Below are positions 37,335-60,278 of a stretch of DNA of 60,284 nucleotides, one piece after another; positions within the stretch are counted from its first letter, which is position 1; every line of letters begins with the position of its first letter. The position numbers and the translations under genes were made by a program. The stretch is taken from positions 1-60,284 of the forward strand of contig CAMDPZ010000005.1 in NCBI GenBank assembly GCA_945905765.1, read 5' to 3'. Under the pieces are notes generated by a model, which was not told the DNA's origin, ran no database searches, and saw only the letters and a list, made by a program, of their open reading frames with translations. Source of the DNA: Nitrospira lenta. GTDB lineage: Bacteria; Nitrospirota; Nitrospiria; Nitrospirales; Nitrospiraceae.

Positions 37335-37859
37335 ATGCCGATGAAAATTACAGGACGACATCTCGTGGTGACGCCGGCCCTCAAGGCGCATGTCGAAAAA
37401 CGGTTTGAGCGGCTGGCGCGATATGACGTGAAGCTGAGCCATCTGGAAGTCATCTTGAGCGTGAGCAAGCTGCAACATGCGGCAGAGGTGGTCTGTGCGG
37501 TGCAGGGGCGCCGGATTCAGGCGAAAGCGACGACGCCGGAAATGTATGCGACGATCGATCAGCTGGTGACCAGGCTGGCCGCGCAGATCCGTAAGCACAA
37601 GGAGCGCCAGGCCGATCATAAGGCGTCGGTCAAGAAATTAGCGCGCAAGGCGGTGCGCCCCTCTGCGCCTCAGGAAGAGACAGAGCCGGAGCTGGAGGTC
37701 GTTCGTCCCGCGAGGGCGGTGTTGACGCTGGAGGAGGCGAAGCGCCGGCTGGATCCTCTGCCCGGTTCGCTGCTGGTCTTTACGCTGCGTTCATCGGGGA
37801 AATTGCAGATCCTGCAACGTGTCGGCCGCGATCGCATGGTGTTGATCGATCCGTCGTAA
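37335..37859 (+). CDS. hpf: Ribosome hibernation promoting factor, long form
   Basis: The product has an N-terminal S30AE domain (MKITGRHLVVTPALKAHVEK) and, after a charged linker, a C-terminal dimerisation domain beginning VVRPARAVLTLEEAKRRL. Long HPF joins two 70S ribosomes into 100S dimers in slow growth. The start lies at ATG 37335 or 37341, just after AAAGGA; the open frame extends upstream to 37260 without family similarity. Confidence 0.9.
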   Translation: MPMKITGRHLVVTPALKAHVEKRFERLARYDVKLSHLEVILSVSKLQHAAEVVCAVQGRRIQAKATTPEMYATIDQLVTRLAAQIRKHKERQADHKASVKKLARKAVRPSAPQEETEPELEVVRPARAVLTLEEAKRRLDPLPGSLLVFTLRSSGKLQILQRVGRDRMVLIDPS

Positions 37860-37872
37860 GGGGTAGGTTCGC

Positions 37873-38736
37873 ATGGCCGGACTCAAGCTAGTCGTGATCA
37901 GCGGTCTTTCCGGTTCAGGAAAGTCGCATGCCCTCAAATGTTTCGAGGATGCCGGATACTTCTGCATCGACAATTTGCCTCCGGCGCTGCTGCCGACGTT
38001 TGTCGAGTTGTGCCATCAGCAGGGGGGCGAGATTAAGAATGTCGCGCTCGGCATCGATGTCCGGGAGCGCGTATTTTTTTCTGATCTCGTGGGGATTCTT
38101 GAGCAGGTCAAGGCCCTGGGCCATTCGGTGGAGTTGATGTTTTTCGAGGCGCGCGAAGAGGTGCTGGTTCGGCGTTTCTCGGAGTCTCGGAGGCCCCATC
38201 CGTTGCTGCCGCATCTCCCCATGCTGGAAGGGGTGCGTTTCGAGAAGGAACATCTGGCCGACTTGCGCCGCCATGCCGACCGTATCATTGATACCTCCGA
38301 TTTGACGGTGCATGAACTGCGAGAGCTGTTGGCCAAGCGGTTCGGGCAGGAGGGGACGCCTCGCCGGTTGACGATCTCGCTGGTCACGTTTGGCTTCAAA
38401 TTCGGTGTGCCGTACGATATCGACCTCCTGTTTGATGTCAGGTTTTTACAGAATCCCTTCTTCGTGCCCGACCTCAAGCCCTTGACCGGGGAAGACCCGA
38501 AAGTGCGGAGTTATGTGCTGACCGATCCTGACGCGGTCGCTTTCATCGGGCAACTTGAGGGCCTTTTTAAGTTTCTCGTGCCCCTCTTCGAGCGAGAACG
38601 CCGCAGCTATGTGAATGTCGGGATTGGCTGCACCGGCGGCCGGCACCGGTCGGTGGCGATTGCCGGACGGCTTCAGGAGAGCTTCGCGGCAATCGGCTAT
38701 CACGCGACGATCACCCATCGCGACATCAATAAGTAG
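37873..38736 (+). CDS. rapZ: RNase adapter / nucleotide-binding protein RapZ
   Basis: The 287-residue protein has an N-terminal P-loop GLSGSGKS (residues 11-18) and the C-terminal GIGCTGGRHRSV loop that binds glucosamine-6-phosphate in E. coli. RapZ controls amino-sugar synthesis through small RNAs in Enterobacteria; in other phyla its role is less clear. It follows hpf by 13 bases, as in the rpoN-hpf-rapZ clusters of many bacteria, but the PTS genes usual there are absent. Confidence 0.95.
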   Translation: MAGLKLVVISGLSGSGKSHALKCFEDAGYFCIDNLPPALLPTFVELCHQQGGEIKNVALGIDVRERVFFSDLVGILEQVKALGHSVELMFFEAREEVLVRRFSESRRPHPLLPHLPMLEGVRFEKEHLADLRRHADRIIDTSDLTVHELRELLAKRFGQEGTPRRLTISLVTFGFKFGVPYDIDLLFDVRFLQNPFFVPDLKPLTGEDPKVRSYVLTDPDAVAFIGQLEGLFKFLVPLFERERRSYVNVGIGCTGGRHRSVAIAGRLQESFAAIGYHATITHRDINK

Positions 38737-45317: not shown

Positions 45318-46583
45318 ATGACGACTAAACGCGCACCCTCAGTAGCTCATCTGCAACAGGCTTTGCGAGAGAAGACACGCGAAGTCGATGTGCTCCATCG
45401 GATCACAGAATCGATCAGCAACCAGCTGGATCTTGAATCAGTCCTCCGGCATATCGTCGAAGTGGTCGTCGAAGTCACGAAGGCGGATGCCTGTCTCCTC
45501 TATCTCTTGTCGGACGGCCAGGACGAACTCATCCTGCGAGCCTCCAAGAATCCCCATCCGAAATTGATCGGCCGCATCACGATCGGGCTAGGCGAAGGCA
45601 TCACCGGATGGGTGGCCCAGGAGCGGACGCGCGTCGTGATCCCGAGCAATGCGAGCGACGATCCACGTTTTAAGTTCTTTCACAATCTTCCGGAAGACCG
45701 CCATCAAGCCTTTGTCTCCGTGCCGATCATGGCCAAGAAAGAAGTGGTCGGCGTGATCAATGTGCAGCACAAGCGCCCCAAGCGCTATCGGCCGGACGAG
45801 ATGGCGCTCCTCTCGACCATTGCCAATCAAGTGGGTGGCGCGATTGAGAACGCGCGGCTCTACGATCAAATGAAACGCAAGGCCCTGCAGGTGGAGACCC
45901 TGTCGCTGGTGTCGGAAACGGTGGCCTCTAATCGTTTGATCGAAGATGTGTTGCAACTTCTGGTCACGATGACCGCGCAAATGATGAACTCCAAGATCTG
46001 CTCGATCATGTTGCTGGACCAGGTGAGCGGAGAGTTGCGGATCGAGGCGACGCAAAGCCTGAGCGAACAGTACCGGCGGAAGCCGAATCTCAAGGTCGGG
46101 CAGAGTATCAGCGGGCGCGCCGTGCAAGACCGCAGGCCGATCATTGTGGCCGACGTGACCAAAGAGCAGGACTATATGTTCCCGGATCTGGCCAAAAAGG
46201 AAGGGCTCTGCTCCATGGTCTCGGTCCCGATGATGGTGCGGGAGAAGGCGGTGGGGGTGATCAATAGCTACACGGCCGTGCCTCATGTGTTTACCAGCGA
46301 AGAGGTCAAGCTGCTTCAGGCCATTGCGAATCAGGCTGCCATCGCTATCGAACACACGACCCTGATCGAGAAGTCCTTCGAGATGCAGGAAGCGCTGGCG
46401 GTGAGGAAACTCATGGAGCGGGCCAAGGGCTATCTCATGCGGGCGAAGAAGCTCACGGAAGAAGAGGCCTTCAAGCTCATTCAGCGCCAAAGTATGGATC
46501 TTCGGAAATCGATGCGTGAGATCGCCGAGGCGATTCTCCTCGCGGGCGATATCGAAGAGCGGGCCGATCGAGTCAGGCACTAA
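45318..46583 (+). CDS. GAF-GAF-ANTAR RNA-binding antiterminator
   Basis: The 421-residue protein has a short N-terminal coiled coil, a first GAF domain (about residues 32-175), a second GAF domain (about 190-345) and a C-terminal ANTAR domain (about 358-410) with LMERAKGYLMRAKKLTEEEAF and QRQSMDLRKSMREIAEAILL-type helices. ANTAR domains dimerise on paired hexaloop RNA hairpins to stop terminators forming. GAF domains sense small molecules or redox state; the signal is unknown. Three matching RNA targets lie at 49455-49546, 58543-58634 and 58664-58736. The gene sits tightly between aroB and nadE. Confidence 0.88.
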   Translation: MTTKRAPSVAHLQQALREKTREVDVLHRITESISNQLDLESVLRHIVEVVVEVTKADACLLYLLSDGQDELILRASKNPHPKLIGRITIGLGEGITGWVAQERTRVVIPSNASDDPRFKFFHNLPEDRHQAFVSVPIMAKKEVVGVINVQHKRPKRYRPDEMALLSTIANQVGGAIENARLYDQMKRKALQVETLSLVSETVASNRLIEDVLQLLVTMTAQMMNSKICSIMLLDQVSGELRIEATQSLSEQYRRKPNLKVGQSISGRAVQDRRPIIVADVTKEQDYMFPDLAKKEGLCSMVSVPMMVREKAVGVINSYTAVPHVFTSEEVKLLQAIANQAAIAIEHTTLIEKSFEMQEALAVRKLMERAKGYLMRAKKLTEEEAFKLIQRQSMDLRKSMREIAEAILLAGDIEERADRVRH

Positions 46584-46590
46584 GGGGGCT

Positions 46591-48369
46591 ATGCGCACGT
46601 TTCGTATCGCCATGGTGCAGATGAATCCGACGGTCGGAGATCTGGACGGCAACGTCCGCCGGATCACGGCCTGGCTGCGCGAAGCGAAGAAGGCGAAGGT
46701 CGATTTAGTCGCATTTCCTGAGCTGGCGATCACCGGCTACCCGCCAGAAGACCTCTTGTTGAAGCCTCGTTTTATCGCGGACAATCGCCGCGCGCTTCAG
46801 GAAATCGTCCGGCATTGCCGGGGCCTGGCCGCGGTGGTGGGCTACGTCAGTCAGAACGATGGTATCGATCCAAAACCGGCCCGTTCGTCGGTCGTGCCGG
46901 CCGGGTCGCACGAACTCTACAATGCGGCGGCGTTCATCGCCGATCAGAAACTTATCACGACCTATTGTAAGTGGTACCTGCCGAACTACGGCGTGTTCGA
47001 CGAGAGCCGTTATTTTCATCCGGGTCGGCGGTTGCCACTTATCCGCCTGCGCGGCACGGTGATCGGGGTCAATATTTGCGAGGACGTCTGGGTGCCGGAA
47101 GGTCCGACCCGGTTCCAGGCAGCGGCTGGCGCCGAAGTGATCGTCAATATCAATGCCTCGCCCTTTCATCTGGGCAAGAGCCGGGTACGGGAGCAGATGT
47201 TGGCGACTCGCGCGAGGGAAAACGGGGTGGTGCTCACCTACACCAACCTGGTCGGCGGGCAGGACGAGCTGGTCTTCGACGGGAACAGCGTGATCCTCGA
47301 TCACCAGGGCGAGGTCATCGCGCGAGGGAAAGCCTTCGAAGAGGATCTCATCGTGGCAGACCTCAATATGGAGGCGGTCGCGCGCGCGAGGCGTACGCAG
47401 GGCCAGAAGAAGCTCCTGCCGAGACGGATTGCCGCGGTGGTAGAGATATGCGTGGCGTCGCTTCCGGCTGTCCCGAAAGTTCGCGCGCGGGCGGTTCCCG
47501 ATCTGGTGGCGGCCCTGGACCCACTGGAAGAAGTGTATCGGGCCCTCACGCTGGGCGTGCGCGACTATGTGAGGAAGAACGGATTTACACGGGTCATGAT
47601 CGGGTTGAGCGGCGGGGTGGACTCGGCCTTGACCGCCGTGCTGGCCGTCGATGCGTTGGGCGCCGAGAACGTCTTGGGCCTGTTCATGCCGTCGCCCTAC
47701 ACGTCGCAAGACAGTTACGAGGATGTGGCTGAATTGGGGGCGCGGCTTGCGATTTCCGTTCGCACGATTCCCATCACGACGTTGTTCGATACCTATCGGC
47801 AATCGCTCGCCGAGACGTTCGAGGGCCGCGCGCCTGATACGACGGAGGAGAATCTCCAGGCCCGCATTCGGGGCAACCTGCTGATGGCCTTCTCCAATAA
47901 GTTCGGCCATCTGGTGCTCACCACGGGCAATAAGAGCGAGATGAGCGTGGGCTATGCCACGTTGTACGGAGATATGGCCGGCGGATTTGCCGCGATCAAA
48001 GATGTGCCGAAGACGATGGTCTATGATCTGGCGAAACTGCGCAATCGCCGTGGCGCAACCCCGATGATTCCCAAACGGACGCTCGATCGGCCGCCGACCG
48101 CCGAGCTGAGGCCCAATCAAAAGGATGAAGACTCACTGCCTCCCTATGAGATCTTAGATCCCATTCTCCAGGCTTATGTGGAAGAAGACCGGTCGCTTGA
48201 AGAGATCGTTGAAGCGGGGTATGACCGGGCGACGGTGGCCCGTGTGATTGCGCTGGTGGATGGCAGCGAGTACAAGCGCCGGCAGGCGCCGATCGGGATC
48301 AAGATCACGCATCGGGCTCTGGGCAAGGATCGGCGGATGCCGATCACCAATGGCTACCGGAATTCGTAG
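46591..48369 (+). CDS. nadE: Glutamine-dependent NAD+ synthetase
   Basis: The 592-residue two-domain enzyme amidates nicotinic acid adenine dinucleotide with nitrogen from glutamine. The N-terminal nitrilase-type domain shows Glu in FPELAITGYPPED, Lys in YCKWYLPNYGVFDE and Cys in GVNICEDVW. The C-terminal synthetase has the P-loop IGLSGGVDSALT and TTGNKSEMSVGYAT. ATG 46591 follows AAGGGGG and lies 7 bases after the ANTAR gene; the longer frame to 46516 overlaps it. The 3' end overlaps the convergent lipoprotein gene by 16 bases. Confidence 0.97.
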   Translation: MRTFRIAMVQMNPTVGDLDGNVRRITAWLREAKKAKVDLVAFPELAITGYPPEDLLLKPRFIADNRRALQEIVRHCRGLAAVVGYVSQNDGIDPKPARSSVVPAGSHELYNAAAFIADQKLITTYCKWYLPNYGVFDESRYFHPGRRLPLIRLRGTVIGVNICEDVWVPEGPTRFQAAAGAEVIVNINASPFHLGKSRVREQMLATRARENGVVLTYTNLVGGQDELVFDGNSVILDHQGEVIARGKAFEEDLIVADLNMEAVARARRTQGQKKLLPRRIAAVVEICVASLPAVPKVRARAVPDLVAALDPLEEVYRALTLGVRDYVRKNGFTRVMIGLSGGVDSALTAVLAVDALGAENVLGLFMPSPYTSQDSYEDVAELGARLAISVRTIPITTLFDTYRQSLAETFEGRAPDTTEENLQARIRGNLLMAFSNKFGHLVLTTGNKSEMSVGYATLYGDMAGGFAAIKDVPKTMVYDLAKLRNRRGATPMIPKRTLDRPPTAELRPNQKDEDSLPPYEILDPILQAYVEEDRSLEEIVEAGYDRATVARVIALVDGSEYKRRQAPIGIKITHRALGKDRRMPITNGYRNS

Positions 48370-49343
48370 GGGGCTGCCTGCTGAGGTCTTAACGGTGAGG
48401 TTTTTCGCTTCTGGTTGTCGAGCTGTTTCCGAATTGATTGCAGTTCCTTCCTGATAGTTTCCAGCTCCAAGTCTTTCTTCACGACGAGATCTTTCAACGT
48501 GCGAATTTCCGCTTCACGCTGAGCCAGGGGGGCTGCAGTGCGGGATGGATTGTCTGGTGGCGTGACTCCCGCGAGAGGCTCGCGAGTCTGTGCGGCCCGT
48601 TCCCCCTGAGGCGCAGGTTGCTCGGTGGTGGTGGTTGCTGCTGCTGCTGCTGGCGCGGTCTGTTGCAGTAGCTGATAGTCGATGACGAGAAACCGATCGG
48701 TCGAGCTTCCGTCTGTCGGCCGGTTGAACGTATCGGACCGTTGGGCAAGGCTTGGAGTGAATGACAGGGTGCGATTTGAGAGGTTTGACGGGTCTGGCAG
48801 GCGACGATGGGCAAGCCCGTCCGTGTTCGCTTGGGTCGGCGCATATCGATATTGAGAGAGCGTTACATAGAGCGAGAGGCCATAAGCGTAGAGAGAGCCT
48901 GCCGTGGTTTCAATGACTGTATGTTCCAAGCGGCCACTGTTTTGGCGGGGGCTCGTGACCTGGAATGATACGGCCTCTCCCGGTGAGGCCGCCGTGAGGG
49001 TTTTGACAATCCTGGGAGTGAGGAACTGAACCTCTTCTGCCGAAAAGACCGGGACGGAAGAGTATCCTGCCAGCAACTCTTGGAGTGTCCGTTGCCGTTC
49101 CTGGACCTGCATACCGTTCAAGACTCGGGCGATGAGGGCCGGTTCCAGATTGATCGGGTGACTGGCCTGAACCGATGGATCTGGCATTTGGTGCAGCGCC
49201 ACCGTTCCGCGCGGATCTTCAAAGAGGACCCTGTCGCGCTGGTCGGTGATTGTACAGGCGGCGCAGAGAAGACAAAGGAGAACGAGGAAAAATGAAGGCT
49301 TGTGGGGCGGCTTTGCTGGAGAGGATGGTGCTGGACGGAGCAT
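48354..49343 (-). CDS. Putative lipoprotein with C-terminal coiled coil, unknown function
   Basis: The 329-residue product has a signal segment ending in the lipobox-like LCAAC (Cys30). A globular region covers about residues 35-215, then comes an Ala/Thr/Pro-rich linker, and residues 270-315 form a charged coiled coil (LETIRKELQSIRKQLDNQK). I do not recognise the family. It converges on nadE with a 16-base 3' overlap and is divergent from the porin leader. Confidence 0.65.
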   Translation of the reverse strand: MLRPAPSSPAKPPHKPSFFLVLLCLLCAACTITDQRDRVLFEDPRGTVALHQMPDPSVQASHPINLEPALIARVLNGMQVQERQRTLQELLAGYSSVPVFSAEEVQFLTPRIVKTLTAASPGEAVSFQVTSPRQNSGRLEHTVIETTAGSLYAYGLSLYVTLSQYRYAPTQANTDGLAHRRLPDPSNLSNRTLSFTPSLAQRSDTFNRPTDGSSTDRFLVIDYQLLQQTAPAAAAATTTTEQPAPQGERAAQTREPLAGVTPPDNPSRTAAPLAQREAEIRTLKDLVVKKDLELETIRKELQSIRKQLDNQKRKTSPLRPQQAAPYEFR

Positions 49344-49409: not shown

Positions 49410-49439
49410 TTGACAGGTTTTCCCGCCACATGGTACAAG
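49410..49439 (+). promoter_or_regulatory. Sigma-70-like promoter for leader A and the nitrogen operon
   Basis: TTGACA (49410-49415) and TACAAG (49434-49439) are 18 bases apart. The predicted start, near 49446, is about 10 bases before the first hexaloop hairpin, so the transcript would begin almost directly with the regulatory RNA. A similar CATGGTACA core occurs ahead of leader B. Confidence 0.5.
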
Positions 49440-49454
49440 GTGGCCCATCGGACA

Positions 49455-49546
49455 GGGGAACAACGGCGTTTCCCACCGGCTTTTTTATAGTACGGCATGG
49501 ACAATGGCGTCCTCCAGCCCCAACGGGCTAGAGGGCGTTTTTTTTT
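49455..49546 (+). promoter_or_regulatory. ANTAR-type antiterminator leader A, upstream of porin-amtB-amtB-glnK-glnD-glnA
   Basis: Hairpin P1: GGGGAAC (49455-49461), loop AACGGC, GTTTCCC (49468-49474), with one G-T wobble. Hairpin P2: GGAC (49499-49502), loop AATGGC, GTCC (49509-49512). Both six-base loops have A at 1 and G at 4, the recognition feature of ANTAR targets. The 3' half of P2 is also the 5' arm of a terminator at 49508-49546, so the two folds exclude each other. Binding by an ANTAR protein should allow read-through. The likely binder is encoded at 45318-46583. This is read from sequence only. Confidence 0.8.
49508..49546 (+). terminator. Intrinsic terminator of leader A
   Basis: CGTCCTCCAGCCC (49508-49520) pairs with GGGCTAGAGGGCG (49525-49537) around CAAC, with one mismatch and one wobble. 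Nine T residues follow (49538-49546), giving an excellent rho-independent terminator. It shares bases 49508-49512 with hairpin P2. Confidence 0.88.
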
Positions 49547-49734
49547 GGCTACATTCGAGCAGGCTATATCGCGTGGGCAAGTTGAGAAGCGAAATGGGTC
49601 AGTCGGCTGGCGGGAATCGATTCAGCTATGAGGAGTGAGGTTGCGCACAAGGGCGTGCGTGGCGACGACGTCGTCGAGGTGAGAGCGCAAGGGGCATGAG
49701 CAGTGGAATCACTAATCGAACGAGGGAGAACGGC

Positions 49735-51042
49735 ATGATGTCAGCACGCAATCTCATCGGAATAGGGATCGGAATGTTGTTGTCGCTGGGTGGCGGCAAT
49801 GCCGTGTTCGCACAAGGACCAGCGGCAGCGCCGGCTCCGGCGCCGAGCCTACAGGAAAGGCTGGATTCTTTAGAGAGGAAAGTGGATGCGCCGTCCATCT
49901 GGAAGACCCTGGGGTTCAAGGCGTCCGGGTTTTTGGACGTGGCCTATACTCACAATTTCAATAATCCCAATACCAACCTCAATCAACTGCATATCTTCGA
50001 CACCGATGCGAACTCCTTTTCGACCCACATGGTGCAACTCATGCTTGAACGTCCCGCTGATGGCGGCGGGAGCGGCACGGACCGGCTTGGGTTCCGTACC
50101 AGGCTGAACTTCGGATTGGATGCCAGGGTGACGAGGGCGCGCACGAATTTCGCGCCTGGCACCAGCAACAACGAGCTCGATTTTCAGGAGGTCTACGGCG
50201 AATACATCGCTCCGATCGGCAACGGTTTGAAGATCCAAGCAGGAAAGATCAATACGTTGATCGGCTATGAGGTGATCAACAGTTTCGAGAACCCGAATTT
50301 TTCCCGCAGCTTCATGTTCGGCTTGGGCCAGGCCTTTACGACCACCGGTGTCCGGCTTAGCTATACGTTCAATCCGGTCGTGAGCGCGTCCATCGGCGTG
50401 ATCAACGGCTGGGACAACGTGACGGATAACAACAAGAGTAAATCCTTCGAGTGGCTCCTGGCCCTGACGCCGCATGAAAAGTTTGGCATGAGTTTCTACG
50501 GGTCCTACGGCGCGGAACAATCGAACAGCCAAGGGACGGCACCTGCCTCCACCGGCGCCGATCCGACTGCCAAGCGGACGGTGGTGGGGACGATCATGAC
50601 CGTCAAGGCCACCGACCGGGACACCATCGTGCTGGAGCCCTACTATGGGAATGAAGAGAACGCGAGCACGGTCAAGCGGTCACGAAATGCTCGATGGAAT
50701 GGGCTGGCCGGCTATCTGACTCATGATTTCAGCGATCAATGGAGCGCCAGATTCCGCGGGGAAATTTTTGAGGATGCGGGAGGGGCGCGTACGTGCGGTG
50801 GAACCTTCGGGTTTGCCGGAGGCACCAATACCTGTGCGGGGGCGACCTCGACGGTCGCGGCCACACCGGTCGCTCAAACGCTATGGGAAAATACCTTTAC
50901 GCTTCAATATAAGCCCTTTCCCTCGCTGATCACGCGGACGGAGTTTCGCTACGACAAGTCCGATAAGAACGTCTTTCTTTACGGCAATCGCCCGGTGAAC
51001 AATCAAGAAACCCTGTCATTCCAAATCGTTTACCTCTTCTAA
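49735..51042 (+). CDS. Outer-membrane beta-barrel porin (OmpL/BBP2-like)
   Basis: The product of about 435 residues has a signal peptide (cleavage near VFA-QGP), an Ala/Pro linker, a short coiled coil (SLQERLDSLERKV) and then alternating beta strands ending in an aromatic C-terminus (FQIVYLF), as in outer-membrane barrels. The pattern KASGFLDVAYTHNFN fits the beta-barrel porin-2 family. Its position ahead of two ammonium transporters suggests uptake of a small nitrogen solute. ATG 49735 follows GAGGGAG; an ATG at 49696 is in frame but weakly supported. Confidence 0.78.
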   Translation: MMSARNLIGIGIGMLLSLGGGNAVFAQGPAAAPAPAPSLQERLDSLERKVDAPSIWKTLGFKASGFLDVAYTHNFNNPNTNLNQLHIFDTDANSFSTHMVQLMLERPADGGGSGTDRLGFRTRLNFGLDARVTRARTNFAPGTSNNELDFQEVYGEYIAPIGNGLKIQAGKINTLIGYEVINSFENPNFSRSFMFGLGQAFTTTGVRLSYTFNPVVSASIGVINGWDNVTDNNKSKSFEWLLALTPHEKFGMSFYGSYGAEQSNSQGTAPASTGADPTAKRTVVGTIMTVKATDRDTIVLEPYYGNEENASTVKRSRNARWNGLAGYLTHDFSDQWSARFRGEIFEDAGGARTCGGTFGFAGGTNTCAGATSTVAATPVAQTLWENTFTLQYKPFPSLITRTEFRYDKSDKNVFLYGNRPVNNQETLSFQIVYLF

Positions 51043-51065: not shown

Positions 51066-52454
51066 ATGAACCGATTAACACGTATCATGACTGCGATGCT
51101 TCCCGTCCTGGCCTGCGCTATCCTGATTGGGGTGACGGGTCTCTATGCGCAAGAGGCGGGAGCTCCAGCTTCAGCGGTAACGGCGCCTCTTGTCCAGGAG
51201 GCGGCTCCGGCTGCTGTCCCAGTTCAGCCGAAGATCGATACGGGCGATACGACCTGGCTATTGGTCTCGACGGCCATGGTGTTGGCGATGACGGCGCCGG
51301 GGTTGGCCCTGTTCTATGCCGGCATGGTTCGCTCGAAGAATTCTTTGAGCACAATCATGCAGAGCTTCATCATCCTCTGTCTGATCAGTCTCCAATGGGT
51401 TCTCTGGGGCTATAGTCTGGCCTTTGGGCCGGACAAGGGCCATTTGATTGGCGGGTTCGAATGGTTCGGGCTGAACGGCGTCGGGTTAGAGCCCAATGTC
51501 GATTATGCCGCGACCGTGCCTCATCAAGCCTTCATGATCTTTCAAATGATGTTCGCGGTGATCACGCCGGCCCTCATGACCGGCGCCTTCGCCGAGCGGA
51601 TGAAGTTCGGCAGTTTTCTGGTCTTCACCTTGCTCTGGGCGACGTTTATCTACGATCCGCTGGCCCATTGGATCTGGGCGGTCGGGGGCTGGGTCAGAAA
51701 TCTTGGGGCGCTGGACTTCGCCGGAGGGACGGTCGTCCATATCAGTTCCGGCGCTGCGGCCTTGGCCTGCGCCATCGTGTTGAAGCGGCGATTGGGCTAT
51801 GGCAAGGAACATATGGCCCCGCACAATTTGCCCATGACTGTGCTGGGCGCGTCCTTGCTTTGGTTCGGTTGGTTCGGGTTCAACGCGGGCAGCGCGGTGG
51901 CTTCCGGGGCTTTGGCGACCAGCGCGTTTGTCGTGACCAATACGGCGGCAGCCGCTGCGGCCTTGGCCTGGATGGTCGTGGAGTGGCTCTATCGAGGCAA
52001 ACCAACCGTCCTGGGCGCAGCCAGCGGTGCTGTGGCTGGATTGGTGGCCATCACGCCGGCTTCTGGCTTCGTCGGCCCGATGGCCTCGATCGCGATCGGG
52101 TTGGGGGCGGGAGTCCTCTGCTATGGAGCGGTGTTGTGGAAGTCCCGGCTGGGCTACGATGACGCCCTCGATGTCGTGGGGATTCACGGAGTCGGAGGCA
52201 TCTGGGGCGCGCTGGCGACCGGACTGTTTGCCTCGAAGGCGATCAATGCAGCAGGCGCTGACGGGCTGTTCTACGGGAATCCGGCACAGCTGGGCATTCA
52301 AGCGATGGCGGTGCTGATCTCGGTGGTGTTTTCGTTCGTGGGGACCTTCGTGATTCTGAAACTGGTGGATGGACTGATGGGGCTACGTGTGAGTGAGGAG
52401 GAGGAGCGAATGGGCTTGGACCTCAGTCAACATGAGGAACGGTCCTATTCGTAA
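51066..52454 (+). CDS. amtB: Ammonium transporter (Amt/MEP/Rh family), first copy
   Basis: The 462-residue protein has a signal-type N-terminus, a short periplasmic segment and eleven membrane helices. The twin pore histidines are present at about residue 225 (GGTVVHISSG) and 374 (DVVGIHGVGG). The TGAFAERMKF stretch is also typical. It conducts ammonium or ammonia inward. A second copy follows 6 to 30 bases later, and glnK, its likely regulator, is third. Confidence 0.96.
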   Translation: MNRLTRIMTAMLPVLACAILIGVTGLYAQEAGAPASAVTAPLVQEAAPAAVPVQPKIDTGDTTWLLVSTAMVLAMTAPGLALFYAGMVRSKNSLSTIMQSFIILCLISLQWVLWGYSLAFGPDKGHLIGGFEWFGLNGVGLEPNVDYAATVPHQAFMIFQMMFAVITPALMTGAFAERMKFGSFLVFTLLWATFIYDPLAHWIWAVGGWVRNLGALDFAGGTVVHISSGAAALACAIVLKRRLGYGKEHMAPHNLPMTVLGASLLWFGWFGFNAGSAVASGALATSAFVVTNTAAAAAALAWMVVEWLYRGKPTVLGAASGAVAGLVAITPASGFVGPMASIAIGLGAGVLCYGAVLWKSRLGYDDALDVVGIHGVGGIWGALATGLFASKAINAAGADGLFYGNPAQLGIQAMAVLISVVFSFVGTFVILKLVDGLMGLRVSEEEERMGLDLSQHEERSYS

Positions 52455-52481
52455 GCAGGGGTGATCGAGGAGAAGGAGGGG

Positions 52482-53888
52482 ATGGTGATTGACCAGGAAC
52501 GAGACGGTAGTCGCAAGCGAACGTACCAACGGACGTTCCTGTCCGTAGGCCTGAGCATCGCGGCCTTGCTGGTGGGAGTCATGGCGGCCTTTATTGGGCC
52601 AGTCTCGGCTCAGGACTCAGCGGTCGCACCGGTTGAAGCGGTCGCAGCTGCCGCAGCCCCTGTGCTCAAGATCGATACGGGGGATACGGCGTGGGTTCTC
52701 ATGTCCACAGCGATGGTCTTGCTGATGACGATGCCAGGCCTGGCCCTCTTCTACGGGGGTCTTGTTCGAAGCAAGAACATCCTGGGGACGATCATGCAGA
52801 GTCTCGTCATTCTGTGTCTGGTCAGTCTGCTCTGGATTCTTGTCGGGTACAGTCTGGCGTTCGGCCCCGATAAGGGAGGCGTTATCGGAGGCCTTGAGTG
52901 GGCAGGGCTTAGCGGGGTGGGCAGCGAGCCTCATCCTGTCTATGGCCCGACGATTCCCCATCAAGTATTCATGTTGTTTCAGTTGATGTTTGCCGCGATC
53001 ACGCCGGCGTTGATCACCGGGGCATTTGCAGAGCGGATGAAGTTTTCCGCGTTGCTGCTGTTTGCGGCCTTGTGGTCCCTGTTGATTTATTCTCCGGTGG
53101 CCCATTGGATTTGGGGCGGTGGATGGTTGGGGAAGATGGGGGCATTGGATTTTGCCGGAGGCGCGGTGGTGCATATCAGTTCCGGAGCGAGCGCCCTGGT
53201 CTGTGCCATCGTGATGGGGAAGCGCAAGGGCCATGGAGCCGATTATATGGCTCCTCATAACCTGCCCTTCACGTTATTGGGAACCGGCCTCCTCTGGTTT
53301 GGCTGGTTCGGGTTCAACGCGGGCAGCGCCTTGGGGGCGAATGGGCTGGCCGGGAGCACCTTCCTGGCGACTCATGCGGCGGCGGTCACTGGCGCCCTGG
53401 TCTGGATGGGGGTGGAGTGGGCCCATCGCGGAAGGCCCACCGTACTCGGTCTGGCCAGCGGTGCGGTCGCTGGTCTGGCGACCGTGACTCCGGCTTCCGG
53501 GTATATCGGACCGTTTCCAGCCATCATAATTGGCGTTTTTGCAGGGTTTCTGTGCTATTTCGCCGTTGTTTGGAAGGGGAGGATGGGCTATGATGACTCG
53601 CTCGACGTCGTGGGGATCCACGGTGTGGGCGGAGTCTTTGGCATCCTCGCGACAGGGCTCTTTGCCTCCAAGGCGATCAATGCCGCCGGGGCTGACGGGC
53701 TCTTTTTCGGCAATGCCGGACAGTTGGGCATTCAGGCCGTCATGGTCGGCGCGGTGGCGCTGTTTTCCGTGATCGGCACCTGGATCATTTTGAAAGTGGT
53801 GAATGCGGTGGTGGGGCTGCGGGTCTCTCCGGAAGACGAATCGACCGGGCTGGACCTCAGCCAGCATAATGAGCGGGCCTATTCATAA
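52482..53888 (+). CDS. amtB: Ammonium transporter (Amt/MEP/Rh family), second copy
   Basis: This protein of about 468 residues is a clear paralogue of the preceding one, probably from a tandem duplication. Twin histidines lie at about residues 231 (GGAVVHISSG) and 380 (DVVGIHGVGG). An N-terminal signal-type helix precedes the barrel. AAGGAGG just upstream suggests ATG 52482 or GTG 52485 as start; a GTG at 52461 is also in frame. The two copies may differ in affinity or in GlnK control. Confidence 0.95.
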   Translation: MVIDQERDGSRKRTYQRTFLSVGLSIAALLVGVMAAFIGPVSAQDSAVAPVEAVAAAAAPVLKIDTGDTAWVLMSTAMVLLMTMPGLALFYGGLVRSKNILGTIMQSLVILCLVSLLWILVGYSLAFGPDKGGVIGGLEWAGLSGVGSEPHPVYGPTIPHQVFMLFQLMFAAITPALITGAFAERMKFSALLLFAALWSLLIYSPVAHWIWGGGWLGKMGALDFAGGAVVHISSGASALVCAIVMGKRKGHGADYMAPHNLPFTLLGTGLLWFGWFGFNAGSALGANGLAGSTFLATHAAAVTGALVWMGVEWAHRGRPTVLGLASGAVAGLATVTPASGYIGPFPAIIIGVFAGFLCYFAVVWKGRMGYDDSLDVVGIHGVGGVFGILATGLFASKAINAAGADGLFFGNAGQLGIQAVMVGAVALFSVIGTWIILKVVNAVVGLRVSPEDESTGLDLSQHNERAYS

Positions 53889-53973: not shown

Positions 53974-54324
<351 letters not shown>

Positions 54325-54326
54325 CC

Positions 54327-57011
54327 ATGGGCGTCACGCACGATTCATTCGGTACGTCAGCGCCGACCGTCGATTCGTCGACGGTCGGCCTGTTTCTCGT
54401 CGAGCAGCGCCGCATCATTGCCCAACGGGTGTTGGACGGCGCCAGCGGCGCAGAGACGATGGCGGCGATGACGGAGCTAGTGGATGGGCTGATCGTCGGG
54501 CGCTATCGGAATGCCGTGCGGGAGGGGGGCGCTGCGGCGGCTTCAGCCGGTCTCCACCAATGTTGTCTCGTGGCCCTGGGCGGGTACGGACGCCGCGAAT
54601 TGGCCCCCTATTCGGACATCGATCTGATGGTGCTCTACCGCCCCGAGGCCAGGGCGCAGGTCGAATCGCTCGTGCGGGCCGTCCTGCACCCCTTGTGGGA
54701 CTGTGGATTCCAGGTCGGACATAGTGTGAGGACGATCAACGACTGTATGGAGCTGGCCGAGAGCGATGCGACGGTGAAGACCTCGATGATGGAGTCCCGG
54801 TTTCTGGCTGGCAGCCCTGAGCTGTTCGAGCAGTTTCATAGCCGGTATCTCCGGAAAGTCGTGGCCAAGAACACGGACTCCTATTTGGACCAAAAGCTGG
54901 AAGAGCGCCGCCGCGAATATCTCAAGTTCGGCGAGACGGTCTATTTGCTGGAGCCGAACGTCAAGAAAAGCAAAGGCGGTCTTCGCGATTTGCACCTGCT
55001 TCAATGGGCCGGCATGGCCCGCTATCAGGCGCCGACGATTCGGGAACTGTCCGATCGCGGCATCCTCTCACGGGCCGATTCGATGGCCCTGACAGAGGCG
55101 CGTGATTTCCTCTGGCGGGTTCGGGCGCTCCTCCATGTGCATGCAGGCACGGCGCAGGAGATTTTGTCGTTCGACGAGCAGATCTGGCTGGCGCAACATT
55201 TCGGATTTCAGGACCAGCCGCATTTGCTGGCCGTCGAGCAGTTCATGCAACAGTATTACCTGCATACAATGGGGCTGCATGAACGTTGTATGCGATTTGT
55301 CGAACGGTGCCGGAGCGTGCCGTTCTGGCAACGGATCACGCGGTTTTTCCCGGCGCCCCGCGTCGATGGTTACTTTGTCGTACGGGGCGGGATCCTGACG
55401 GTTGCGGATGAACATCGCGCGAGGGTGCTGGAAAGTCCGGCGCTGCTTCTGCGTCTCTTCGATTTGGCGCGAGCGCAGCAGCTGACTATCGCGCCGCCCC
55501 TGCTCGAAGATATTCATCGGCATGTCGATACGGTCTCGGCGGAGGCCTATCGGACGGCGGAGGTCAATCGGACGTTCCTCGCGATTCTTGCTGGGCCCGG
55601 CACAGCCAAGACCCTGGAGGCCATGCATCGGGCCTCGGTGCTGGAGAAATTGGTGCCGGCCATGGGCACGGTCCGTGGCCTGATGCAGTTCAATCAGTAC
55701 CATAAGTACACGGTGGACGAGCATAGTCTGCTGGCGGTGGCGCGGGCGGAAGACCTGGCCCAGGACCAGGGAGCGATGGGGGAGATCTACCGCAGCATCA
55801 AGCGAAAAGACCTCCTGCACCTGTCCGTGCTGCTCCACGACTTGGGCAAGGGCCAGGAAGAAGACCATAGCGATGTGGGGCGGCGTTTGGCTGAGGATGT
55901 CGCGGTCCGGCTCGGGCTCGATGAGCAGGATCTGCGGACCCTCTCGTTCCTCGTGCATCGGCACTTGCTGATGGCCCATACGGCTTTTCGGCGGGACCCG
56001 AACGATGTGAAGGTGGTGCTGCCCTTTGCCCGCGAAGTCGGGACGCCGGAAGTGTTGAAGAAGCTGTTGGTGTTGACGGCTGCCGATATCGCGGCGGTCG
56101 GGCCCGGAGTCTTGACCAAGTGGAAGGAATCGCTCCTGGTCGAGCTCTATCAGCGTACGATGGCCGAGGTGTCGGGGGAACGGAATGGAGTCATGGCTCC
56201 GGAGCGAGTCCGTCAGATTGCCGAAGAAGTCAGCAACCATCCGTTGCTGGCCGGGCAGGGTAGTGGGACTCTGGCCTGGGTCGAGAGCCAGTTGAGCCAA
56301 TTTCCCGAGCGTTATGCCTATGGCACGTCGCCGGGCCGTATTGCGGCGCATTTGGCGGCTGTGCGACGATTGCATGTCGGCGAGGTGCTGGTGGAGGCGG
56401 AGTTCAATCGTGAGTTGGGGACCTGCGAATATAGCGTCGTGACCCACAACGACGTGACGCCCGGTATTTTCTCCAAGATCGCCGGGGTCATGGCCGGCAG
56501 CGGAGTGCAGATTCTCGATGCGCAGATTCTCACCAGAGCCGACGGCATCGTGGTCGATACGTTTCAGGTGATGGATCCGGACTATCAGGGCGCCCCTCCG
56601 GCCGAGCGGTTGCGGACGGTGGGCGATCGGATTGCGTCGGTCCTCAAGGGTTGGGAGCATGTGGACGATGTGTTGCGCCGGGGCGCGCGGCTGAAGCTGA
56701 CGAGGTCCTTGCCGAAAGCCCGTGAAGCGACGGAGGTGCGGATCGACAATGAAACGTCGGACGCCTATACGATTCTCGACGTGTTTGCCGACGACCGGCA
56801 GGGTCTGTTGTATGTGATCACAAATACGATCTTTCAATTGGGACTGTCGATCCACGCCGCCCGCATTTCCACGAGGGTGGATCAGGTGGCGGACGTGTTT
56901 TATGTCGCGGATCATCGGGGTAAGAAGCTCGACGATCACGGGCAATTGGAGCGGTTACGAACGGGAGTAGAAACGGCCATCGAGAATTTTCTCGAGGCGA
57001 AAGCGGCCTAG
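54327..57011 (+). CDS. glnD: PII uridylyltransferase / uridylyl-removing enzyme
   Basis: The 894-residue sensor adds or removes UMP on PII in response to glutamine. The nucleotidyltransferase motif is GGYGRREL...D97-x-D99, the HD hydrolase motif is HDLGKG (near residue 503), and two ACT domains follow (about 705-780 and 810-890). The gene starts 2 bases after glnK. It makes this operon a complete transporter, PII and sensor unit. Very long antisense frames here are shadows. Confidence 0.97.
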   Translation: MGVTHDSFGTSAPTVDSSTVGLFLVEQRRIIAQRVLDGASGAETMAAMTELVDGLIVGRYRNAVREGGAAAASAGLHQCCLVALGGYGRRELAPYSDIDLMVLYRPEARAQVESLVRAVLHPLWDCGFQVGHSVRTINDCMELAESDATVKTSMMESRFLAGSPELFEQFHSRYLRKVVAKNTDSYLDQKLEERRREYLKFGETVYLLEPNVKKSKGGLRDLHLLQWAGMARYQAPTIRELSDRGILSRADSMALTEARDFLWRVRALLHVHAGTAQEILSFDEQIWLAQHFGFQDQPHLLAVEQFMQQYYLHTMGLHERCMRFVERCRSVPFWQRITRFFPAPRVDGYFVVRGGILTVADEHRARVLESPALLLRLFDLARAQQLTIAPPLLEDIHRHVDTVSAEAYRTAEVNRTFLAILAGPGTAKTLEAMHRASVLEKLVPAMGTVRGLMQFNQYHKYTVDEHSLLAVARAEDLAQDQGAMGEIYRSIKRKDLLHLSVLLHDLGKGQEEDHSDVGRRLAEDVAVRLGLDEQDLRTLSFLVHRHLLMAHTAFRRDPNDVKVVLPFAREVGTPEVLKKLLVLTAADIAAVGPGVLTKWKESLLVELYQRTMAEVSGERNGVMAPERVRQIAEEVSNHPLLAGQGSGTLAWVESQLSQFPERYAYGTSPGRIAAHLAAVRRLHVGEVLVEAEFNRELGTCEYSVVTHNDVTPGIFSKIAGVMAGSGVQILDAQILTRADGIVVDTFQVMDPDYQGAPPAERLRTVGDRIASVLKGWEHVDDVLRRGARLKLTRSLPKAREATEVRIDNETSDAYTILDVFADDRQGLLYVITNTIFQLGLSIHAARISTRVDQVADVFYVADHRGKKLDDHGQLERLRTGVETAIENFLEAKAA

Positions 57012-57057: not shown

Positions 57058-58467
57058 ATGAACGTACGTGAGGTGTTGGAGTTTGTGAAGAAGCATAAGG
57101 TCCAGATCGTGGACTTGAAGTTCGTCGATCTCATCGGGACGTGGCAGCATTTCAGCATCCCGACGAGCGAATTGACGGAAGACCTCTTCAGGGACGGGTC
57201 CGGACTGGACGGCTCCTCCATTCGCGGCTGGAAGGCCATCAATAACAGCGACATGTTGGTCGTGCCGGATCCGGCGACGGCCTGTCTCGATCCCTTCTGT
57301 GCGGTTCCGACGCTGAGCCTCATCGGCAACGTCGTGGATCCGATCACGCGCGAGACTTACGATCGCGATCCGCGTTATGTGGCGCAGAAGGCGGAGAAAT
57401 ACCTCAAGAGCACGAAGATCGGCGACACGTCCTATTGGGGGCCTGAAGCCGAGTTCTTCATTTTCGATCAAGCCCGCTACGATCAGAACGGCCACAGCGG
57501 CTACTACTTCATCGACTCCGAAGAAGGCGTCTGGAACATGGGGCAGGAAGGCCACAACCTGGGCGGCAAGATCCGTCAGAAGGAAGGCTATTTCCCGGTC
57601 GCCCCGACCGATACGCAACAGGATATCCGCAGCGAAATGATTCTGGAGATGGAGAAGGCCGGTATCCAGATCGAGAAGCATCACCATGAAGTCGCCACGG
57701 CCGGTCAGGCGGAAATCGACATCCGTTTCGATTCGCTGGTCCGCACCGCCGACAAGATGATGATGTACAAGTACATCGTCAAGAACGTCGCCCGCCGCCA
57801 TGGCAAGACCGCGACCTTCATGCCGAAGCCGATCTTCGGAGACAACGGGTCAGGCATGCACAGCCACCAGAGCATCTGGAAGGACGGCAAGCCCCTGTTC
57901 GCCGGGAAGGAATATGCGGGCGTGTCGCAGATGTGTCTGCATTACATCGGCGGCATTCTGAAACATGCGCCGGCATTGGCCGCCTTTACCAACCCGACCA
58001 CGAACTCCTACAAGCGTCTCACGCCTGGGTTCGAAGCGCCGGTGTTGTTGGCCTATTCCAGTCGGAACCGGTCGGCCGGCATCCGGATCCCTATGTATTC
58101 ACCGAGCCCCAAAGCGAAGCGGATCGAGGTGCGGTTCCCTGACCCGGCCGCGAATCCCTATCTCGCCTTTTCCGCCATGCTCATGGCGGGGTTGGACGGT
58201 ATTCAGAACAAGATCAATCCGGGCGAACCGGCCGAGCAGGATCTGTACGATCTCGAAGCCAAGGAAGCGTCGAAGATCCGCACGATGCCAGGCAGCCTGG
58301 ATGAAGCCCTGAACAACCTGGAGAAGGACCATGAGTTCCTCCTCAAGGGCGGGGTCTTCAGCAAGGACCTGATCAATGCCTGGATCGGCTACAAGCGCAC
58401 CAAGGAAGTGGATACCATGCGGTTGCGTCCGCATCCGTATGAGTTCTACCTCTACTACGATGTCTAG
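57058..58467 (+). CDS. glnA: Glutamine synthetase, type I
   Basis: The 469-residue enzyme makes glutamine from glutamate, ammonia and [15 protein letters not shown] and GSSIRGW mark the N-terminus, [10 protein letters not shown] a metal-ligand region, and [18 protein letters not shown] the active-site loop. Tyr397 in DLYDLEAKE matches the E. coli adenylylation site exactly, so GlnE control is possible, although glnE is not here. AAAGGAGG lies upstream. Leader B begins about 75 bases after the stop. Confidence 0.98.
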
Positions 58468-58524: not shown

Positions 58525-58542
58525 TCTCCTATGAGCTGAGTT

Positions 58543-58634
58543 GAGGCAACGGCGCCTCGGCAAGGCTCTCGACATAAAGCACACGGACAACGGCGTCCGT
58601 CATTCTGGAAAGAGTGGCGGACGCCGTTTTGTTT
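58543..58634 (+). promoter_or_regulatory. ANTAR-type antiterminator leader B, upstream of FNT-cynS
   Basis: P1: GAGGC (58543-58547), loop AACGGC, GCCTC (58554-58558). P2: CGGAC (58584-58588), loop AACGGC, GTCCG (58595-58599). Both are perfect five-base stems and both loops have A1 and G4. P2 shares its 3' half with the terminator at 58590-58634. It is the first of two such leaders in series. Confidence 0.8.
58590..58634 (+). terminator. Intrinsic terminator of leader B
   Basis: ACGGCGTCCGTC (58590-58601) pairs with GGCGGACGCCGT (58616-58627) with one wobble, around a 14-base loop. TTTTGTTT follows. Confidence 0.8.
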
Positions 58635-58663
58635 GTGGGCCCATTCCGGGACGAAGAAGTCTC

Positions 58664-58736
58664 GGAGCAAGGTGGCTCTACCACCTTTCGATAGGACAAT
58701 GGCGTCCTCATTCTGGCAACGGAGTGAGGACGTTTT
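58664..58736 (+). promoter_or_regulatory. ANTAR-type antiterminator leader C, second in series before FNT-cynS
   Basis: P1: GGAGC (58664-58668), loop AAGGTG, GCTCT (58675-58679), with one G-T wobble. P2: AGGAC (58693-58697), loop AATGGC, GTCCT (58704-58708). Both loops have A1 and G4. P2 shares bases with the terminator at 58703-58736. Its P2-terminator segment closely resembles that of leader B (CATTCTGG in both loops), suggesting tandem duplication. Confidence 0.78.
58703..58736 (+). terminator. Intrinsic terminator of leader C
   Basis: CGTCCTCA (58703-58710) pairs perfectly with TGAGGACG (58725-58732) around a 14-base loop, followed by TTTTCGCTTT. Confidence 0.76.
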
Positions 58737-58798
58737 CGCTTTGAGGGGGCGGCGGGAAAGAACAGCAGGGTAAGACAAGATGGCCATAACATTCCCAC

Positions 58799-58946: not shown

Positions 58947-59777
58947 ATGCATGTAGTAGATCATGAGCGGATTGCAGTCCTCGCGAAGAAGAAATTTCAA
59001 TTCATGGATGTTTCGCTCGGCGGGTATCTCTTGTTGTCGGCCATGGCCGGAGTCTATCTGGGCTTCGGCATCGCGCTGATCTTCAGCCTGGGAGGGCCCT
59101 TGGTGGCGGCAGGATCGCCGGCGGTGAAACTGGTCATGGGTGCCTCCTTCGGGATTGCCTTGACGCTGGTCATCTTCGCCGGCTCGGAACTGTTTACGGG
59201 CAACAATATGGTGGGAACGATCGGCGGTCTCTCCAAGAGCGTGACCTGGGGGCAAGTGGCGCAATTCAACTTCTGGTCCTGGGTCGGGAACCTGGCCGGC
59301 TCGCTGGTGCTGGCCTGGTTCGTGGTGGAGTCCGGCGTCTTTTCGAAGGGACCCACGGCGGAGTTTCTCGGCAAGGTGGCAACGGTGAAGATGGCCTTGC
59401 CAGCCTGGGAGCTGTTCGTGAGGGGGATCCTCTGTAATTGGCTGATCTGTCTCGCGGTCTGGACTGCGGGGCGGACCACGAACGATGCAGCGAAGATTCT
59501 GCTGATCTTCTGGTGCCTGTTCGCCTTCATTGGCACAGGATTCGAGCACAGCATTGCCAATCAATCGCTGCTGGGCATGGCGCTGTTCCTGCCCCATGAG
59601 GCAGCCGTGAGCTGGGCGGGGTTTTGGTACAACCAATTCTTCGTTGTGCTGGGAAACATCGTGGGTGGCGGCCTGTTCGTCGGGGGGCTCTATTGGATGG
59701 TGAGTCCCTATCGGGTGGTGGAAGAGTCAGTCGTAGAAGAGGCCACGTCCGGAGCGCCGGCGGCTGTCCGGTTCTAA
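58947..59777 (+). CDS. Formate/nitrite transporter family channel (NirC/FocA-like)
   Basis: The 276-residue protein has six membrane helices and FNT features: the ITLVIFAGSELFTGN-type stretch after helix 2, and a pore region with GFEHSIAN that carries the central pore histidine. FNT channels pass small monovalent anions such as nitrite and formate. It starts after GGAGG, behind two ANTAR leaders, and 60 bases ahead of cynS. Nitrite is the likely substrate in this organism; cyanate is a possibility given the neighbour. Confidence 0.92.
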   Translation: MHVVDHERIAVLAKKKFQFMDVSLGGYLLLSAMAGVYLGFGIALIFSLGGPLVAAGSPAVKLVMGASFGIALTLVIFAGSELFTGNNMVGTIGGLSKSVTWGQVAQFNFWSWVGNLAGSLVLAWFVVESGVFSKGPTAEFLGKVATVKMALPAWELFVRGILCNWLICLAVWTAGRTTNDAAKILLIFWCLFAFIGTGFEHSIANQSLLGMALFLPHEAAVSWAGFWYNQFFVVLGNIVGGGLFVGGLYWMVSPYRVVEESVVEEATSGAPAAVRF

Positions 59778-59837: not shown

Positions 59838-60278
59838 ATGGAGAAGGAGATGATTCAAAAGGCGATCAAGGCGAAGCGGCTGGCGAAGAAGGTCACGATT
59901 GCGGAGGTGGCTAAAGTCGTGGGCAAGAATCCCACCTTCGTGGCGGCGGCCTTGAATGGCAACCATCGCTTCACGCCGGATGAGGCCAAGAAGGTCGGGC
60001 AGTTGCTCGAACTGGATCAGTCCCTGACGGCGGCCTTGAGCGCCTTTCCTGTCAGGACGGATTTCCCCAATGCCACGGACCCGTTCAAGTATCGACTGCT
60101 GGAGATCATCGGTGTCTACGGCGATTCGATGCGCGAGCAGGCCAATGAAATGTTCGGTGACGGGATCATGAGCGCGATCGATTTTACTCTCGATATGGAA
60201 AAGGTGACCGGGAGCCAGGGGGAAGCCCGGTGCAAAATTACGCTGAACGGCAAATGGCTCGAATATAAAACGTTCTGA
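59838..60278 (+). CDS. cynS: Cyanate hydratase (cyanase)
   Basis: The 146-residue enzyme converts cyanate and bicarbonate to ammonia and carbon dioxide. It has an N-terminal helical domain and the catalytic C-terminal domain with Arg86, Glu89 and Ser112, which match the E. coli catalytic Arg96, Glu99 and Ser122. FGDGIMSAIDF and the C-terminal LNGKWLEYKTF are family signatures. AAAGGAGG precedes the ATG. It appears complete; the window ends 6 bases after the stop. Confidence 0.97.
   Translation: MEKEMIQKAIKAKRLAKKVTIAEVAKVVGKNPTFVAAALNGNHRFTPDEAKKVGQLLELDQSLTAALSAFPVRTDFPNATDPFKYRLLEIIGVYGDSMREQANEMFGDGIMSAIDFTLDMEKVTGSQGEARCKITLNGKWLEYKTF

Follow-up and report, generated by a model that had tools for sequence, protein, structure and literature searches.

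Antitermination of nitrogen genes by ANTAR proteins is a known kind of control. In Enterococcus faecalis, the phosphorylated response regulator EutV reads the leaders of eutP, eutG, eutS, and eutA, which carry two hexaloop hairpins (P1 and P2) whose loops have A as their first and G as their fourth base (A1/G4) and are closed by A-U and C-G pairs, with P2 overlapping a terminator. According to the passages of PMC3369931 on hairpin spacing, the eut linkers measure 5-12 nt, and a linker of 14 nt is already harmful; the addition of 20 nt is reported to have abolished activity, and an actinobacterial ANTAR survey (PMC8164766) gives 2-25 nt as its linker criterion. In Klebsiella, the NIT-ANTAR protein NasR acts at the nasF leader as a one-component antiterminator of nitrogen assimilation genes, and its SELEX targets were stem-loops in pairs, closed by C-G and carrying A1 and G4 (PMC7496416). 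GAF sensing is coupled to ANTAR in mycobacteria, where a GAF-bearing kinase signals by phosphorelay to a separate ANTAR regulator. This pair is presumably PdtaS/PdtaR. In addition, GnfR of Geobacter, reportedly described by Ueki and Lovley in 2010, is said to be a two-component response regulator tied to nitrogen fixation that places nitrogen genes under ANTAR control.

Ramesh et al. 2012 (PMC3369931) predicted ANTAR elements before P-II, ammonium/urea/nitrate transporter, and glutamine synthetase genes, and reported 13 predicted elements in six units of Desulfotomaculum acetoxidans, where serial leaders may thus occur too, since the elements outnumber the units. Nitrospira is not named in the main text of that paper. 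According to the same source, ANTAR proteins carrying PAS or GAF domains were all still uncharacterized in 2012, and PMC7496416 counted two characterized one-component ANTAR proteins in 2020, naming the light-responsive PAL and studying NasR itself. For Nitrospira, the nitrogen gene cluster treated below has already been described (PMC6311188, relevant part), in a paper that by word counts contains neither "ANTAR domain" nor "antiterminator"; among open-access papers on ANTAR and Nitrospira, none concerned such a system as judged by title and start of abstract.

The window analyzed here is a whole stretch of 60,284 nt from Nitrospira lenta (GCA_945905765.1, contig CAMDPZ010000005.1, forward strand). 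It contains a leader at 49455-49546 which, with a probability of roughly 0.92, would be part of a one-component ANTAR antitermination system with a GAF-GAF reader and a nitrogen-acquisition regulon. As in the eut system, the leader has two A1/G4 hexaloops, A-U and C-G closing pairs, and a P2 that overlaps the terminator, and the window protein keeps the ANTAR residues for G4. Unlike EutV, the candidate regulator has two GAF domains as its sensor and no receiver by Pfam; unlike NasR, it carries tandem GAF domains rather than a nitrate-sensing NIT domain, with a different gene set; and unlike the mycobacterial pair, it joins GAF and ANTAR in one chain. The system is a variant of the known kind, distinguished by its GAF-GAF sensor, its serial leaders, and its 24-nt linker, which exceeds the tolerance of EutV and lies at about the upper bound of the actinobacterial criterion.

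Architecture and predicted folding of the leader

The P1 hairpin (49455-49474, plus strand as all features below unless stated) consists of GGGGAAC (49455-49461), loop AACGGC (49462-49467), and GTTTCCC (49468-49474), forming 7 bp. It is followed by the 24-nt linker (49475-49498) and by the P2 hairpin (49499-49512), in which GGAC (49499-49502) and GTCC (49509-49512) form 4 bp around loop AATGGC (49503-49508), with the 3' arm inside the terminator. The intrinsic terminator (49508-49546) pairs CGTCCTC (49508-49514) with GAGGGCG (49531-49537), has an inner AGCCC/GGGCT helix and an internal mismatch in its stem, and ends in T9 (49538-49546). These features, including the bases 49508-49512 common to P2 and terminator, agree exactly to the base with the sequence-only reading from which this analysis started.

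That reading had also proposed a promoter upstream. Sigma70-like boxes are indeed present at 49410-49439 (TTGACA at 49410-49415 and an extended TGG-TACAAG at 49431-49439, hexamers 18 nt apart), and the distance from TTGACA to P1 is constant in 12 of 24 genus leaders; however, a consensus scan for promoters and terminators listed neither this promoter nor the terminator of the leader, the latter, in our explanation, because of the internal mismatch in its stem. The window also contains rpoN (sigma54) and rapZ (35695-38733), though the leader promoter looks sigma70-like.

The predicted fold of the leader comprises P1 and the terminator (-38 kcal/mol, z -3.2). When the leader was truncated before the 3' arm of the terminator, the centroid retained P1 alone and the fold did not outdo shuffled sequences (z -0.6), which, we infer, is the expected look of a switch needing a protein to hold P2. 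A descriptor of two A1/G4 hexaloops with a terminator starting in P2 found two sites in the window, compared with a mean of 0.045 per dinucleotide shuffle (one site in 9 of 200 shuffled windows); the second of the two sites relies on a non-conserved P1. Since the descriptor also fires in shuffles, the case rests on conservation and covariation instead.

In the genus, RNAalifold paired the linker with the P2 5' arm (49475-49505 in the window) without double changes, and this pairing possibly represents a default-state helix favoring the terminator. A linker hairpin was considered as a general feature and dropped: in the leader 49455-49546 it reached a z-score of only -1.3, and across 112 linkers the mean z was -0.7, with 38 below -1, such hairpins being strong in several second tandem elements but not general.

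A different origin of the switch would be a riboswitch or leader-peptide attenuator in which the signal is sensed directly in the RNA. Riboswitches control nitrogen genes in some other bacteria, and weak matches to AdoCbl-II (minus strand) and narK were found below the gathering scores. At gathering scores, however, the Rfam search of the window returned three tRNAs only and assigned the leader to no curated family; moreover, the conserved core consists of two small hexaloops, and the presence of the element across genomes follows a protein (see below), making direct sensing by the RNA the least probable of the alternatives considered here. The narK RNA (RF03032) has the CAACGGCG hairpin in common with the leader, at 14.4 bits, far below its gathering score of 43.2. 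In a search of the whole genome with RF03032, E-values up to 10 brought up 12 matches, of which the best had an E of 0.7 and none passed the cut-off; the model likewise matched in 13 of 14 control genomes, and it was rejected as a candidate.

The GAF-GAF-ANTAR protein

The proposed antiterminator (421 aa, 45318-46583) is encoded in the window 3 kb upstream of the leader, with Pfam GAF and ANTAR domains above cut-off and no receiver domain found in the Pfam scan. Its ANTAR domain scored 66.7 bits against PF03861 (curated cut-off 27.3) and was the single PF03861 match in the draft genome, which is 90% complete. Alignment with EutV (6wsh) was gapless across 54 residues. The residues R142, K149, E160, and Y164 of EutV, reported in the structural part of PMC8934654 to hold the flipped loop base G4, correspond to R363, K370, E381, and F385, with Y164 replaced by F (EutV numbers are those of PMC8934654; by our reading the 6wsh chain numbering is shifted by two). 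All four are invariant in 24 aligned proteins, of which the other 23 are 57-95% identical to that of the window, whereas the EutV backbone contacts R168 and R177 are not kept, being Q and S in the window protein.

Regarding the signal, GAF1 matched the NCBIfam models of PtsP (7.5e-38, residues 26-187) and NifA (2.8e-29, residues 23-189), both far below the whole-protein cut-offs, and its nearest solved domains by sequence were 3e0y and the PtsP domains 3ci6 and 3trc. The predicted structure of the protein (pLDDT 84.4, pTM 0.56) gave the PtsP GAF domain 3ci6 as the best single-domain fit to the GAF1 model (TM-score 0.86-0.88, target-normalized; 30-31% identity). For GAF2, NCBIfam gave a faint hit to NreA, a nitrate sensor (2e-6). 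Glutamine is reported, in the part of PMC4848567 concerned, as a ligand of the GAF domain of EINtr. Since the GAF domains nearest to GAF1 in sequence are those of PtsP (EINtr) and NifA, the activating state can be suggested, tentatively and with the odds rather against it, to be one of low glutamine or high 2-oxoglutarate. The fold search with the whole model, in which the tandem GAFs of cyanobacterial adenylyl cyclase and of phosphodiesterases ranked top and the PtsP GAF lower, reduces our confidence in this ligand, the best fold matches of the GAF pair being of the cyclic-nucleotide type.

Conservation and covariation of the element

A porin search across 32 genomes of the genus yielded 30 porin loci, and the element was found at 24 of them. 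The six porin loci without it were L062, L063, L065, L066, L067, and L068, of which L063 starts with base 1 of a contig, whereas the porin match of L065 is of just 29% identity. After removal of one duplicate (L047), 23 distinct genus leaders remained; a single match of the leader pattern in an ANTAR locus (L012, near its edge) was disregarded. In these leaders, the P1 loop has A1 in 22 of 23 and G4 in all, and the P2 loop has both in all 23. P1 and P2 were about 99% paired and nearly invariant, no better than shuffles, and such near invariance means that pairing within the genus proves little alone. An RNA model built from the genus leaders (R1) found the element in 31 of the 32 genomes (E up to 1), with weak matches only in G004, G017, and G022 and no element in G002 at the same threshold; G002 and G004 have the ANTAR gene and no clear element.

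For wider relatives, 80 named Nitrospirota loci encoding the ANTAR protein were searched with R1, and 59 of them yielded 64 matches; a further 41 sources, among them the window, yielded 72. These are element counts rather than genome counts, since named and unnamed loci may be one genome (e.g., L134 and G030), and at least two of the 136 matches, kept in the counts, are antisense to a real element (L196:11363 and L224:4275). The sequence-only reading had named compensatory changes in both hairpins around constant A1/G4 as support for its proposal. For P1 such changes are seen: in two alignments of 63 (A2) and 71 (A3) distinct elements, which being fitted to the model are biased towards the structure, each of the seven P1 pairs varies in both partners, and the paired share of cells is 94.1% in A2 and 96.3% in A3. 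The P1 covariation score was 0.515 in A2 and 0.650 in A3; shuffles averaged 0.190 and 0.244, and in neither alignment did any of 500 shuffles attain the observed score; the cruder count of double-change pairs was reached by 0 of 500 (A2) and 22 of 500 (A3), and with the P1 partners slid by 1-3 columns just 41-56% of cells pair. In the terminator, both partners vary in 8 of 12 pairs in each alignment. The four core pairs of P2, by contrast, hardly vary, so that covariation is no test of P2.

Loops were read by stem anchoring in 131 distinct elements, all of them hits of a model that had itself been trained on loops of this kind; 17 of the 131 lacked a P2 pattern of the GGAC/GTCC type and were left out, as were, for P1, 17 of the remaining 114 that lacked a P1 of 5 bp. 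G4 was present in all 114 P2 loops and in 95 of 97 P1 loops, and position 1 was A in 102 and G in 12 of the P2 loops and A in 79, G in 14, and C in 4 of the P1 loops. The proposed loop rule thus holds almost without exception for G4, and in both hairpins of the leader itself, while across elements position 1 is A or sometimes G. The loop-closing pairs of P1 were A-U and C-G in 77 of 97. Altering the sequence of the closing pairs of eutP abolished induction according to the passage of PMC3369931 concerned, and the stem contacts in the EutV structure are described in the relevant part of PMC8934654 as sequence-independent backbone contacts. The median P1-P2 linker across elements was 25 nt.

The same data bear on the possibility that the leader is merely a constitutive terminator or insulator guarding the operon from read-through, with hexaloops arising by chance. 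A strong terminator is present, and the hexaloop descriptor alone occurs in shuffled windows at the rate given above; yet P1 lies outside the terminator and is nonetheless kept and covarying, and the P2 5' arm is near invariant although it too lies outside the terminator. An insulator would also face an upstream frame on the other strand, namely a 329-aa frame without Pfam match (48354-49343, minus strand) that separates nadE from the leader and diverges from the operon. As the presence of the element, in addition, largely tracks the ANTAR gene, we regard a constitutive terminator as very improbable, and the ANTAR target is retained as the reading of the leader.

Candidate target genes in the window and in relatives

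Pfam confirmed the operon behind the leader as porin-amt-amt-PII-glnD-glnA, in accordance with the initial annotation: a BBP2 beta-barrel porin (49696-51042), two Amt ammonium transporters (51066-52454 and 52461-53888), a P-II protein of the glnK/glnB type (53986-54324), GlnD (54327-57011), and the glutamine synthetase GlnA (57058-58467). Two further ANTAR-type elements lie between glnA and the genes of a formate/nitrite transporter (FNT, nirC-like, 58947-59777) and a cyanase (cynS, 59838-60278), both identified by Pfam; the sequence-only reading had named neither these elements nor the ANTAR gene of the window. The second element (58540-58629) has P1 arms GTTGAGGC and GCCTCGGC with loop AACGGC, a P2 of CGGAC/GTCCG with loop AACGGC, and a terminator; it was aligned in four genomes and scored 37.8 bits (E 9e-8) with R1, which was built without it, and 67.4 bits with R2, a model built with it. 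The third (58645-58738) has a P1 with loop GAAGAA (G1), a linker hairpin, a P2 with loop AATGGC, and a terminator, and scored 36.8 bits (E 2e-7) with R1, built without it, and 63.1 bits with R2, built with it; its P1 loop pattern GANGNN (G1, A2, G4) is kept in four of four aligned genomes. An alternative P1 with an AAGGTG loop was dropped for this element, as it is not kept in three relatives. The tandem elements adjoin at 15 bases, each with its own terminator, and the fold of both together (58540-58738) has a z-score of -9.4. The P1 stems of both are unlike the one in the first leader, and their P2 loops retain A1/G4. Tandem pairs were also seen in the glnA-FNT gap of another genus (L276-L278) and behind glnA in L279. 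A fourth, weaker element with a doubtful P1 occurs on another contig (C6:9781-9869; 34.9 bits with R2, 23.7 with R1), followed by a urt-like set in which a Peripla_BP_5 protein and two BPD_transp_2 permeases accompany a 478-aa protein with no Pfam match.

For all 136 elements, the longest downstream frame starting within 900 bases was taken and clustered; the names nadE, porin, FNT, Amt, and cynS were given by likeness to window proteins and the other names from cluster representatives. The clusters comprised nadE (39), lipoprotein-like proteins (17), porin (15), a protein without Pfam match (15), FNT (12), NMT1_2 binding proteins (10), another protein without Pfam match (4, including the urt-like set of the source genome), histidine kinases (4), and Amt (2), besides two further pairs and 11 singletons (including cynS, a NirB-like protein, Peripla_BP_5, and a second BBP2), and three elements had no such frame. 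The NMT1_2 binding proteins are taken by us to be nitrate-linked. The leader stands before the porin in the window and before nadE in many relatives: the element lies between the ANTAR gene and nadE in 30 of 80 named loci, with another gene intervening in some, and on several sufficiently long contigs, including one of Candidatus Nitrospira defluvii, amt, PII, glnD, and glnA come after nadE. Nitrospira moscoviensis and N. defluvii (loci L159/L251 and L168) have the ANTAR gene as well as the element. In the window, nadE probably starts a few bases behind the ANTAR gene and has no element of its own. Beyond the porin operon, the probable regulon takes in FNT-cynS within the window, nadE in relatives, and transporter operons of the urea and nitrate type.

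Other downstream families were also observed. The representative of the cluster of 15 without Pfam match (L160) stands ahead of a urt-like transporter operon, and this family of first genes behind the element (L160, L146, and 13 further loci) encodes proteins of mostly 440-490 aa, the two scanned having no Pfam match; as a guess, they are possibly outer-membrane channels. The lipoprotein-like family (about 300 aa; L223, L224, L226, L236, L238, L249, and others) follows tandem elements in several genomes; the three members scanned had no Pfam match, and the lipoprotein label is a reading of the N-terminus. In four loci of the genus (L139, L143, L149, and L150), a histidine kinase gene is preceded by a weak element whose T-tract is poor; the kinase of L150, the one scanned, is of the Cache-PAS type, and in L139, a LuxR-type response regulator gene is next.

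Co-occurrence of element and ANTAR gene across the class

The ANTAR gene was present in 188 of 269 genomes of the class and R1 matched in 167 (E up to 0.05), in a search whose stricter filters lose some weak matches. The element occurred in 156 of 188 genomes with the ANTAR gene versus 11 of 81 without it (70 genomes had neither, 32 the gene alone, and 11 the element alone), in 109 of 129 versus 3 of 47 when restricted to genomes with a completeness of 90% or more and a contamination of 5% or less, and in 14 of 14 versus 4 of 65 within genus g16 (79 genomes, G108-G186, the membership of unlisted handles being inferred from their order). The Fisher tests on these tallies ignore relatedness, and a gene block lost as a whole does not count as separate evidence for every one of its parts. 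Of the 32 ANTAR genomes without an R1 match, 29 lie outside the family of the window, and R2 (E < 1e-4, within 1.5-kb flanks) matched in 11 of 30 class-wide ANTAR loci, the unmatched ones being mostly of other orders, so the pairing of gene and element is shown for part of the class. Eight of the 11 element-only genomes are less than 90% complete, the other three being G112, G170, and G126. The R1 matches in G112 and G170 were dismissed as chance, R2 finding neither at E up to 0.1.

In ten ANTAR-less g16 genomes, the Amt query had no match (0/10), and nadE and glnA were present in all ten (glnA of G117 in two pieces), with aroB directly before nadE and PII before glnA in each; R2 at E up to 1 found no element at these aroB-nadE and PII-glnA loci. 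Relatives retaining the operon without the hexaloops were thus not clearly found, as these ten genomes, which keep a reduced operon, also lack the protein. In G126, ANTAR matched over residues 1-60 only and Amt in its C-terminal part only, and the one element of this genome lay away from nadE and glnA, with no downstream same-strand frame of 100 aa in the stretch examined. With ANTAR and Amt remnants and an orphan element, G126 (L260 = G126:C50, L294 = G126:C17) looks caught in decay. Because of the neighboring genes and of G126, we infer that the reduced arrangement arose by loss. According to the relevant part of PMC6311188, comammox clade A has Rh-type transporters and clade B and canonical strains have the Amt type; the ANTAR-less genomes may accordingly belong to comammox clade A.

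Another possibility is that the leader is an ANTAR target whose reader is not the GAF-GAF-ANTAR protein, or that the action is on translation or RNA stability instead of termination. ANTAR systems act on translation or transcription termination according to the part of PMC8164766 concerned, the long linker is unlike that of EutV, and a second ANTAR gene could be missing from an incomplete draft genome. However, no second ANTAR match was found in the draft, elements are absent where the GAF-GAF-ANTAR gene is absent, and P2 overlaps a terminator with a T-tract both here and in many other elements. Another reader or mode is hence improbable, though somewhat less so than the constitutive terminator.

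Proposed mechanism and implications

The ANTAR-type reading draws support from the covariation of P1, the near-invariant G4, the window ANTAR protein with its G4 residues, and the co-occurrence of gene and element. From these observations, together with the RNA architecture and the synteny, a course of binding, antitermination, signaling, and elongation control can be proposed. Transcription would start just upstream of P1, and by default the nascent RNA would form the terminator (49508-49546) and transcription would stop. In its active, probably dimeric state, the GAF-GAF-ANTAR protein (45318-46583) would bind both hexaloops through its ANTAR domains, hold P2 folded, and thereby sequester the 5' arm of the terminator, so that the polymerase could run into porin-amt-amt-PII-glnD-glnA. 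The same protein would control FNT-cynS via two switches in series and, probably, the urea-transporter-like operon on another contig.

A broader picture, which is speculative and rated a little lower still than the proposed ligand, is that the nitrogen master switch of these Nitrospirota is an RNA elongation switch, in which one soluble GAF-GAF-ANTAR protein would read glutamine/2-oxoglutarate directly and a hierarchy would be set by the number and strength of serial antiterminators (one for ammonium, two more for nitrite/cyanate), the whole having dropped out together with Amt in a single lineage, plausibly comammox clade A with its Rh-type transporters.

For the timing of nitrogen assimilation in Nitrospira-type nitrifiers, the present analysis offers a concrete candidate regulator and candidate target RNAs spanning ammonium, nitrite/cyanate, and urea genes. 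Moreover, a GAF sensor and its likely target RNAs are found together in one system, and the serial leaders and the long linker would probe the reach of the EutV binding rules.
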